Assembly: GCF_001880325.1 (NCBI RefSeq)
Contig: NZ_CP016312.1
Location: 1,240,001 to 1,304,000 of the forward strand
Direction: 5' to 3'
Length of the DNA: 64,000 nucleotides
Source of the DNA: Thermus brockianus
Lineage (GTDB): Bacteria > Deinococcota > Deinococci > Deinococcales > Thermaceae
Shown: positions 31,846 to 35,369 of the stretch, one piece after another
Layout: the number at the start of each line of letters is the position of its first letter
Position numbering within the stretch: position 1 is the first letter of the stretch
Notes under the pieces: model-generated
What the model was told of the DNA's origin: nothing
Databases searched by the model: none
What the model saw: the letters and a program-made list of their open reading frames with translations, nothing else
Program-made: the position numbers and the translations under genes

Positions 31846-32274
31846 TCACTCTATCGTATCTGAATGCCCCCGAAGGCAGCGGATGGGCACGGTAACCGTG
31901 GTGGAGCTAACGGCAATCAAGTACACCGTACAGGCCGCGTCCGCATACAGGTGGGCCAGGCGTTCTCCGGCGTTGCAGGTGGCGTTTTGGTTGTGGTCCC
32001 AGTAGGCCACGGTGCTTCCCGAGGGGCAAGAGGAGGAAAGCCTAAGATCTTGGGGGTTTCCTAAAAGGGCTTTCAGCTGGTTCCAGGTGGGTACGGCTTG
32101 GTTTTGGGCAATGAAGATGGCGTAGGCGGAGCGGAGGTTTCTTAGGACCTCCTGTTGCTGGGCCTTCCGAGCCTCGGTTTGGAGGTCTAGGTAGCGGGGT
32201 ACGGCCACGGTGGCGAGGATGCCTACCATCAGGAGGACGACCGCAAGCTCCACTAGGGTCAAGCCTCTTGCCAT
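31846..32274 (-). CDS. Type IV pilin-like protein
   Basis: 142 residues. Leader MARG|LTLVELAVVLLMVGILAT; helix continues VAVPRYLDLQTEARKAQQQE. Two cysteine pairs in the globular part could form disulfides. The start overlaps the end of the ligase-like gene by 16 nt. Confidence 0.82.
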   Translation of the reverse strand: MARGLTLVELAVVLLMVGILATVAVPRYLDLQTEARKAQQQEVLRNLRSAYAIFIAQNQAVPTWNQLKALLGNPQDLRLSSSCPSGSTVAYWDHNQNATCNAGERLAHLYADAACTVYLIAVSSTTVTVPIRCLRGHSDTIE

Positions 32275-33692
32275 ACCTCGTTCCGGACCCAGGATGCGCC
32301 CAAGGCAAGCAGGGCGATCGGGGTGACGTGGACGCTATCGTACCAGGTGAGCCCGTAGAGGATATAGCCCACCAGGACGAGGACCCATGGCAGTTTCTCC
32401 CAGGTGGCCTGGCCGAGGGTGAGGCCGAGCCATAGGAGGTAGGCGAGACCCCCTAGAACGCCTACCGACAAGAGGAGGTCCAGGACCCAGTTGTGCGCTT
32501 TGGCGTAGGGGGAGGGGGCGAGGAGGCGAAGGCCTTTGGCGTCTTCCAGGTAAATAAGGCGGTCCTCGCCTTGAATGACCTGCACAGGGGGTGTAAGGGC
32601 AATGGGCACTCGGCTTTTCTCCTTGCCGTTCCAGTCTACGACGTAGGGGTAAGCCCGAGCGAAGCCATCAAAACCCCAACCCAAAAGGGGCCTTAGGGGA
32701 AGTGCTGCCAGCGCTTTTTGCCATAGCTCCAGCCGACCCGAGCTGTAGGCGTTGGCTTCGGTGAAGCCTGCGCCTAACTCGGGGAGAACCCTTCGGAATT
32801 CTGCCAGTTGGAGGTGGGCTAATCCCCAGTAAGCCCCGAAAGTAAGGGCTCCAATGGTCAGAAGTTTCCAAACCCCTTGGGTTTGCTTGTAGCGTGCCCC
32901 AAAGAGCCCTAGGGACAAGAGGGGTATCCACAGGGCGAGCCATCCGCCGCGGGTTTGCGTGAGCCAGAGGGCAAGGCTTCCCAAGGCAAAGAGGAAGAGA
33001 AGCTTTGGGTTTGGCCGAGAGAGGTATTGGCCGGCGAGGAAAAGTCCGAGCAAGGCGAGAACCCCGGCGGCGTGCCCTCGGTGGGAGGTAAGGCCGATGG
33101 GCATCTGTCCTCCGTGCACCCCGGAAGCGGTGGCCTCAGGGTTTTCTTGGCACTGGCTTTTGGCCACATCAAAACAGCGCACGTAGGTTTGGCCCTGGGT
33201 TTGCGTGTAGTCCAGCTTCCAGTTCACGACCTGGGGCAATACCGCCAGGGCATGGAGGGCTAGGCCCAGAAAGAGCGCGGCGGCGAACCGCTTAGGGGAA
33301 ACAAGACCGGTTTCTAGAGCCAAGTAGACCGCCCAAGCGAAGGCCACCCCTAAGGCCCAAAACCGTAACCCGTCTCCCACGCTGGGATACCCGGTAAAGC
33401 TCCAGATGGGTTGGGGTGAAAGGACCGTGGCGGCGATACCGGAAAGGAGAAAACCTAGGGAAGCAAGGAGGGCCAGAAACGGCTTTCCCAGATGGGTTGG
33501 GCCGCTTTTTCGGGTAAGCACCCCGAGGAGCGCTAAGAGGACAAAAGCCGTCATTCCGGCTTCTCGGGGAGCGTTCCAGATCTCCGCATGTCCCTGGCCG
33601 GAGGGGTTAATGGCGGTGAGGGCGGCAAGCAGGCTAAGCAAAAGAACCCCCTCGAGGAGGGTAGGCCTCGAGGGGGAAGGGGCCAAGGTCAT
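32259..33692 (-). CDS. O-antigen-ligase-like membrane protein, possibly a pilin oligosaccharyltransferase
   Basis: 477 residues, about eleven hydrophobic segments and one large periplasmic loop (about residues 290-390). The motif AKAHNWVLDLLLSVGVLGGL matches the Wzy/WaaL/PglL superfamily. Located between two pilin genes, a role in attaching glycans to pilin is plausible, as for PglL/TfpO-type enzymes. Surface polysaccharide polymerisation is the alternative. Base composition is lower in GC than surrounding housekeeping genes. Confidence 0.75.
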   Translation of the reverse strand: MTLAPSPSRPTLLEGVLLLSLLAALTAINPSGQGHAEIWNAPREAGMTAFVLLALLGVLTRKSGPTHLGKPFLALLASLGFLLSGIAATVLSPQPIWSFTGYPSVGDGLRFWALGVAFAWAVYLALETGLVSPKRFAAALFLGLALHALAVLPQVVNWKLDYTQTQGQTYVRCFDVAKSQCQENPEATASGVHGGQMPIGLTSHRGHAAGVLALLGLFLAGQYLSRPNPKLLFLFALGSLALWLTQTRGGWLALWIPLLSLGLFGARYKQTQGVWKLLTIGALTFGAYWGLAHLQLAEFRRVLPELGAGFTEANAYSSGRLELWQKALAALPLRPLLGWGFDGFARAYPYVVDWNGKEKSRVPIALTPPVQVIQGEDRLIYLEDAKGLRLLAPSPYAKAHNWVLDLLLSVGVLGGLAYLLWLGLTLGQATWEKLPWVLVLVGYILYGLTWYDSVHVTPIALLALGASWVRNEVWQEA

Positions 33693-33696
33693 TTCC

Positions 33697-34089
33697 TCAC
33701 TTGAAGCGTAGGTTCACCTTTAAGGGAGTACCGCTATGATGGGTTTTTGCCCCACTAGCGTAGATGGATATGTCAGCGTTACCCGCAGGGGGGTTCGGGG
33801 CGCTGCACTCGATGGTCACGTTGCCTTGAAGGGTAACCTGGGACGAAGCGCTGTTGATGTTTACTCCCTCCAGCCCGTTAAGAACGTCTGCGCAGGTGTC
33901 GGGATAGTCCTTGTTTTGGGCCACATAAATGGCGTAAGCGGAGCGGATGGAGCTCGCAGTAGCTTGGACAGCCGCATCCTTGGCATCCCCGGACAGGTCC
34001 ACAAACCGCGGCACGGCGATGGCCACCAGGATGCCGATGATGACAATGACGATAGCAAGCTCTATGAGCGTGAAGCCTTTTGCCCTCAT
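33697..34089 (-). CDS. Type IV pilin, probably the main subunit of this filament cluster
   Basis: 130 residues from ATG 34089, preceded by GGGAGGTGG; a GTG 9 nt upstream is less likely. The short leader MRAKG|FTLIELAIVIVIIGILVA has Glu at position 5, and IAVPRFVDLSGDAKDAAVQA follows. Two cysteines bracket the C-terminal beta region. It is first in the cluster, nearest the promoter, and resembles the small Thermus pilins (PilA5-like) as I remember them. Confidence 0.85.
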   Translation of the reverse strand: MRAKGFTLIELAIVIVIIGILVAIAVPRFVDLSGDAKDAAVQATASSIRSAYAIYVAQNKDYPDTCADVLNGLEGVNINSASSQVTLQGNVTIECSAPNPPAGNADISIYASGAKTHHSGTPLKVNLRFK

Positions 34090-34114: not shown

Positions 34115-34148
34115 AGTATGGGCGTGGCGTGTGAAAACGGTGTGAAAG
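34115..34148 (-). promoter_or_regulatory. Pilin promoter with Pho-box-like 11-bp direct repeats
   Basis: Read on the minus strand: CTTTCAC-ACCG-TTTTCAC-ACGC (34148 down to 34127), then 6 bp, then a -10-like CATACT (34120-34115). The 7+4 layout of two direct repeats replacing a -35 is the architecture of PhoB/OmpR-family activator sites. The pilin start is 25 nt past the -10. Confidence 0.55.
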
Positions 34149-34200
34149 CTGGGACCTAGGCCGGAGATTACCACGTGGACGCTAGGGGTGCAAGGGGCAC

Positions 34201-34235
34201 CTTTCACAGGCCTTTCACCATGGGCGTGCTACCCT
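34201..34235 (+). promoter_or_regulatory. vanW promoter with Pho-box-like 11-bp direct repeats
   Basis: CTTTCAC-AGGC-CTTTCAC-CATG (34201-34222) is followed after 7 bp by -10 TACCCT (34230-34235), which is 6 nt before the ATG at 34242. The repeat unit and spacing match the opposite pilin promoter, so one regulator may control both. Confidence 0.55.
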
Positions 34236-34241
34236 TGGGGC

Positions 34242-35369
34242 ATGCGCCGGGGCCTTTGGCTTCTCCTCCTTCTCGGGTTTGGCGTGGCCTGGGGGCAGGG
34301 AGCCCCCTTAGAGGCGCTTTTGGTTTTGGAGGAGGAGGTTATAGAGGAGGGGAGGCTTGTGGCCTACACGGGGGTCCAGCGTTACCCCGTGGCCTCGGAG
34401 GCGGAGCTAAAGGCCCTCCTAAAGCGCCTCGCCCGCCCACCCCGCCCGCCCCGTTTCGTCTACCAGGAGGGGCGGTGGCGGGGGGTGGAGAAGAAGGGGC
34501 TCGCCTTTGACGAGGCCCTGGCCCTAGAGGCTTACCGGGAGTCCTTGGCCCAAGGGAAGCGAAACTTCCGGCTTCCCGTGCGCTATACCCCACCAAGCCC
34601 AAGCCTAAGGGACCTCTACGCCCTGGGGGTGCGGGAGCACCTGGCCACGGGGGAGACGGACTTTAGGGGCTCCAGCCGGGAGCGGGCCCATAACCTCCTT
34701 CTCGCCTCGGCCAAGCTGGATGGCCTCCTCCTCCCCCCGGGGGCTTTCTCCTTCAACCGGGCCCTCGGGCCCATTACGGAGGAGGAAGGGTATAAGGAAG
34801 CCTTCGTCATCGTGGGGGAGCGCACGGAACAGGGGGTAGGGGGCGGGGTGTGCCAGGTGTCCACCACCCTTTTCCGCGCCTTTTTCTTCGCCGGGCTTCC
34901 CATCCTGGAGCGCCACGCCCACAGCTACCAGGTGGCCTACTACAAACCCCCGGGCCTGGATGCGGCGGTCATCCAGCCCTACAAGGACCTGAAGGCCCTA
35001 AACGACACCCCGGGCCACATCCTGGTGCAGCGCTCCGTGGTGGGCACCAAGCTCCGCTTCCACCTTTTCGGGACCAAGGACCGGGAGGTGGCCTGGGAAG
35101 GTCCTTTCCTCAGCGAGCGCAAGCCGCCCCTTCCCCCGAAGGAAATCCCCGACCCCTCCCTGCCCCCGGGCGTGCGCAAGCAGGTGGACTTCGCCGCCGA
35201 AGGGGCCCGGGTGGAGGTGCGCCGGAGGGTGCGCTACGCCGACGGCCGGGTGCGGGAAGACCGCTTGGTGAGCGTCTACCGCCCCTGGGGGGCGGTCTAT
35301 CGGGTGGGACCTAGCCCCACTCCAAAAGCACCGCCCGCTCCACCGGCAGGAGGCGGTGGGGCTCCGTGA
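34242..35369 (+). CDS. VanW-family exported protein
   Basis: 375 residues from ATG 34242, which gives a clean signal peptide (RRGLWLLLLLGFGVAWGQG); earlier starts give no sensible N-terminus. The VanW domain is clear: LPPGAFSFNRALGPITEEEGY, then GGGVCQVSTTLFRAFFFAGL and ERHAHSYQV. The C-terminal 90 residues look like a small beta-rich (G5-like) domain. The biochemical function of VanW is not established. Its end overlaps the opposite cupin gene by 59 nt. Confidence 0.88.
   Translation: MRRGLWLLLLLGFGVAWGQGAPLEALLVLEEEVIEEGRLVAYTGVQRYPVASEAELKALLKRLARPPRPPRFVYQEGRWRGVEKKGLAFDEALALEAYRESLAQGKRNFRLPVRYTPPSPSLRDLYALGVREHLATGETDFRGSSRERAHNLLLASAKLDGLLLPPGAFSFNRALGPITEEEGYKEAFVIVGERTEQGVGGGVCQVSTTLFRAFFFAGLPILERHAHSYQVAYYKPPGLDAAVIQPYKDLKALNDTPGHILVQRSVVGTKLRFHLFGTKDREVAWEGPFLSERKPPLPPKEIPDPSLPPGVRKQVDFAAEGARVEVRRRVRYADGRVREDRLVSVYRPWGAVYRVGPSPTPKAPPAPPAGGGGAP

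Follow-up and report, generated by a model that had tools for sequence, protein, structure and literature searches.

A conserved direct-repeat promoter box in Thermus points to a probable surface-life regulon under a proposed OmpR/PhoB-family response regulator

The divergently oriented pilA5 and vanW genes of Thermus brockianus are separated by a short gap in which each promoter carries a direct-repeat box in place of a -35 element. Based on the distribution, spacing and gene context of this box, we consider it probable that both sites are bound by one OmpR/PhoB-family response regulator, the likeliest being an orphan regulator (G000:C1:941689-942360) that is found throughout Thermus and in a sister genus, and not PhoB, and that this regulator heads a surface-life regulon. 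The window, i.e. the whole stretch of DNA that was analyzed (64,000 nucleotides, C1:1240001-1304000 of genome G000), contains the following features:

32259..33692, minus strand: O-antigen-ligase-like (Wzy_C) gene, immediately following pilA5 within a presumed operon
33697..34089, minus strand: pilA5, type IV pilin (PilA5 orthologue), ATG at 34089; PF07963
34120-34115, minus strand: pilA5 -10 element CATACT, 10 bp past the box
34148-34131, minus strand: pilA5 direct-repeat box CTTTCACACCGTTTTCAC, read as CTTTCAC-ACCG-TTTTCAC (7+4+7)
34201-34218, plus strand: vanW direct-repeat box CTTTCACAGGCCTTTCAC, read as CTTTCAC-AGGC-CTTTCAC
34230-34235, plus strand: vanW -10 element TACCCT, 11 bp past the box, with 6 bp between it and the ATG
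34242..35369, plus strand: VanW-like protein gene, ATG at 34242; PF04294, E 1e-41

The pilin of the window was assigned to PilA5 because its best match among solved structures (8qqj, E 5e-22) is the narrow-pilus subunit of T. thermophilus. In that organism, the narrow (twitching) pilus is built of PilA5 and the wide pilus of PilA4 (PMC7203116), and cells cannot twitch without PilA5 (PMC10507856). Here, pilA5 is the first gene of a filament cluster, and its leader contains AGGGAGGTG. A gene for a large membrane protein comes after pilA5 (window 32259-33692) and likewise after pilA4 (L100:5521-6906), and the Wzy_C protein behind pilA5 is possibly a dedicated pilin glycosylation enzyme. On the opposite strand, the closeness of the -10 to the ATG predicts that the vanW mRNA is leaderless.

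Both repeats and both -10 elements lie where the initial annotation had placed them, and nowhere else in the window is the pattern matched with one mismatch or fewer. The exact pattern YTTTCAC-N4-YTTTCAC occurs four times in the 2.39-Mb genome, with about 0.03 occurrences expected when the window is modeled as an order-1 Markov chain, while an exact search of the genome with the reversed control pattern yielded none. Under the same model, the chance of finding the pattern on either strand of the 150-bp gap is 2e-6. Those matches in this genome with two mismatches that were inspected were discarded; most of them lay inside long open reading frames and had no -10.

Over the family as a whole (50 genomes), 58 exact occurrences were counted, and none of the reversed control. 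Two exact matches from another family genus (L040, L041) were set aside, as they showed neither the spacing nor the gene context. A sequence model built from 40 sites and run over the same 50 genomes found the motif in all 27 genomes of the genus and in one genome of a sister genus (G049), 28 in total; it was not found in the remaining 22, and no site in the other three family genera scored better than about E 0.06. The consensus reads YTTTCACACSN-YTTTCACACCC, followed by YANCCT starting 10 bp past the second 7-mer. A YANNNT hexamer stands at exactly the 10-bp spacer in 37 of 53 sites, against 0.56 expected. When the repeats and the -10 at 10 bp were combined into a single 34-bp pattern, 40 occurrences were found in 111 genomes of the class, all of them in Thermus or G049, with none in the 83 other genomes of the class and none for the control across the 111. 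Upstream of the pilin-like genes taken from six genomes of other genera, the motif was not found.

All known sites of the OmpR/PhoB family are direct repeats. M. tuberculosis PhoP requires a pair of 7-bp units set 4 bp apart (PMC4832192), the PHO box was originally defined as two 11-nt units made of 7-bp repeats with a 4-bp spacer (PMC4415409), and the pho box of E. coli lies near the -10, where it stands in for the -35 (PMC4971064). The Thermus box likewise contains two or more units of about 7 bp, repeated in the same direction and set 4 bp apart (an 11-bp period), at a fixed distance from the -10 and with no -35, which supports the architecture proposed in the initial annotation. While the arrangement is that of the E. 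coli PhoB promoters, the repeat itself is not, being TTTCAC(A) rather than CTGTCAT, and the targets are pili and surface genes, with pst and phoB lacking the motif. The closest boxes in sequence are those of M. tuberculosis PhoP and Streptomyces PhoP, which share the 11-bp period and have a TCAC(A) or TTCACC core, although these belong to another phylum, with a different regulon and kinase, and their base-reading residues are only partly shared by our candidate regulator. In the mechanism we propose, two subunits of one OmpR/PhoB-family response regulator would occupy the 11-bp repeats of either site in a head-to-tail arrangement and recruit RNA polymerase to promoters that have a -10 and no -35. 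Control of a major pilin gene by a response regulator, as proposed here, is also the principle of the proteobacterial PilSR system. PilR, however, is a sigma-54 enhancer-binding protein, whereas the Thermus site replaces the -35 beside the -10 and spans two pilins and other surface genes.

Many unrelated orthologous gene groups carry the motif. In the T. brockianus genome, the model matches exactly six sites, those of pilA4, pilA5, vanW, a DUF11 gene, a DUF4388 gene and a GGDEF gene. The motif precedes pilA4 in about 25 genomes (counted by open reading frame), pilA5 in eight, a DUF11-type surface-protein operon in about 17 (and likewise the DUF11 operon on pTT27 of T. thermophilus HB8), an operon encoding DUF4388, MglA-like GTPase, Roadblock and REC-HD proteins in about 15, a secreted-protein operon in about 10, a GGDEF gene in five and a HisKA-HATPase-TPR histidine kinase, also in five; the site of this kinase is degenerate in T. 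brockianus. The kinase gene is adjoined by a REC-only gene, after which come another membrane-type protein and a glycosyltransferase of family 2, and it is associated with an exopolysaccharide-synthase-like locus. Taken as one regulon, these genes would comprise, genus-wide, both pilins, surface and secreted proteins, c-di-GMP-type signaling genes, the MglA-like/Roadblock pair and the histidine kinase with its glycosyltransferase locus.

Several local arrangements were also observed. The secreted-protein operon is preceded by two tandem double boxes with 28 bp between them (L070, L079), and in two species a weaker box precedes a receiver-like gene that is followed by a penicillin-binding-protein-like gene (L167, L169). 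Between the direct-repeat promoter and pilA4, a C6-A4-G6 hairpin with TTGACA directly behind it (L001:1535-1600) is kept in most genomes of the genus, which suggests either tandem promoters or the terminator of an upstream pilin operon. In G048, a pilA4-type promoter and the hairpin precede a transposase-like open reading frame in place of pilA4 (L126).

For pilA4, published reporter measurements exist for the orthologous promoter of T. thermophilus HB27, the activity and temperature response of which need upstream DNA. According to the available text of PMC10507856, a 499-bp upstream fragment gave about 270 MU at 68 C but was strongly down-regulated, to 30 MU, at 80 C, and a 206-bp fragment gave 110 MU at 68 C and 73 MU at 80 C; in that text, upstream DNA is reported to boost and thermoregulate pilA4 with no regulator named, a predicted -35/-10 is described at 131-170 bp upstream of the gene, and the direct-repeat box is not mentioned. 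Such a difference between the fragments is what an activator box located upstream would produce. Counted from the pilA4 ATG, the box begins near -230 in G038, a close relative, and the short fragment ends at -231. As this end thus adjoins the box when G038 spacing is assumed, the 206-bp fragment may still contain the repeats, and the reporter data should not be taken as proof.

The two sides of the pilA5-vanW gap differ in how well they are conserved. The divergent layout was seen in all eight gaps examined, and alignment of the gap across these eight genomes, as had been suggested in the initial annotation, showed the pilA5 box in every one of them. The vanW box, on the other hand, is strong only in this species and its closest relatives: it is exact here, has one mismatch in G032 and G033, is weaker in G043 and G034 and is lost in G041, G044 and G037, three species that retain the pilin site. 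The same regulator likely also controls vanW in this species, but since the vanW repeats are lost or weak beyond the closest relatives, such control is not a rule for the genus. One could instead regard the vanW-side repeat as a by-product of the neighboring pilin site that has no control over vanW. In favor of this view, the repeat is conserved only in the closest relatives, its spacer is 11 bp instead of 10, and the vanW -10 with its leaderless start, GTGCTANCCTTGGGGCATG, persists in seven of the eight gaps, including those of species without the repeats. We nonetheless find this reading rather unlikely, though it deserves consideration, as the double repeat is exact and correctly oriented here, retains all but one base in two relatives and has a chance of only about 2e-6 of arising in the gap. 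The earlier proposal of one factor for the filament cluster and vanW is supported for the pilin cluster, which appears to be co-regulated with other genes, and only partly for vanW.

With respect to the identity of the regulator, the genome encodes eight clear full-length OmpR-family regulators, in addition to one weak partial match. Our comparison covered the OmpR-family members and drew on a sister-genus genome as well as on two from genera that lack the motif. The orphan response regulator (PF00072 and PF00486) has orthologues at 78-97% identity in 27 of 27 genomes of the genus and in G049, that is, in all 28 motif-bearing genomes (frameshifted in one), and none at this level in the other three family genera, where the best matches reach 57% or less and lie mostly at the PhoB positions of those genomes. 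The remaining seven regulators all have orthologues (62-94%) in genera without the motif. Being the only one of the eight that shares the distribution of the motif, the orphan regulator is suggested as the best candidate. This should be read with the consideration that the match rests on a single clade and is therefore suggestive rather than proof; the shared distribution may reflect a single evolutionary origin. Weaker homologues (54-56%) occur in a related family, from the genomes of which the motif is missing. The wing of the orphan regulator reads VVG, where VRG is usual, in every orthologue inspected. The frameshift mentioned above lies in the receiver domain of the G048 copy (L348, G048:C1:1742300-1744000) and reflects either a sequencing error or decay; the motif sites of G048 remain. 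No motif was found before the orphan regulator gene.

Among the other OmpR-family members, the one that most deserves to be weighed as the binder of the boxes is L034 (C1:746347), which has its own kinase. Its recognition helix, NVVDVYIGYLRKKL, is the closest to that of M. tuberculosis PhoP, the reader of TCACAGC repeats. PhoP reads this sequence using Asn212, Val213, Tyr217 and Tyr220, among others, and in an alignment made by eye L034 has all four of these residues, while the orphan regulator has only Val213 and Tyr217. L034 is, however, 91-94% identical in genera without the motif, and the target of so nearly invariant a protein should persist there, where no site beats an E of about 0.06. 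Binding by L034 or by another of these regulators is improbable. A similar 7+4 double repeat with another core, TTTACAC-CCCC-TTTACAC, was observed at L029:1501-1518 (G000:C1:1167674-1167691, minus strand), about 1.7 kb from the OmpR-family regulator L031, and may be the box of L031 itself.

Our profiling covered OmpR-family regulators only, and the repeats could in principle belong to an alternative sigma factor or to a regulator outside this family. We judge this very unlikely, since the distances from TTTCAC to the -10, 10 and 21 bp, do not suit a -35, so that the box is not itself a -35, and since the strict head-to-tail period of 11 bp is characteristic of OmpR/PhoB-family dimers. Weakest of all is the phosphate reading implied by the initial annotation, in which the PhoB orthologue (L032) would bind the boxes as Pho boxes, and pili and vanW would answer phosphate starvation: the 7+4 architecture is the same, L032 adjoins PhoR and PhoU in a PhoB-PhoR-PhoU locus and Pho boxes vary by species (e.g., GTTCACC in Streptomyces), but the reading fails because the regions upstream of pstSCAB and phoB lack the motif and PhoB is also present in motif-less genera (its orthologue is found in 50 of 50 family genomes, the motif in 28), and no phosphate gene was seen among the motif sites examined. 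PhoB was accordingly rejected as the regulator.

The sites with their spacing and conservation, the groups of genes, the regulator distribution and the lack of the box at phosphate genes are computed results, while binding, activation, the role of the orphan regulator and the signal are inferred. The preferred reading, in which the orphan regulator binds the boxes, would place pilus expression under a signal such as temperature, nutrients or surface contact. The control of type IV pili in Thermus has been described as little known (PMC10507856, PMC8578077), and in our literature search neither a regulon of this kind nor a regulator for the motif turned up. Thermus is a model for natural transformation, and a short testable DNA box, together with a defined set of genes and a single named candidate for the regulator, makes pilus control experimentally tractable. 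If true, the proposal would connect the two pili with enzymes of the c-di-GMP type and with genes for the surface coat. More tentatively, and with somewhat less than even confidence, the Thermus-specific orphan regulator may be a master switch for surface life, turning on both pili, the surface proteins, the exopolysaccharide-synthase-like locus, the c-di-GMP-type enzymes, the polarity-type GTPase pair and, inside its own regulon, a histidine kinase, thereby closing a feedback loop that would explain how temperature and medium control pilA4.
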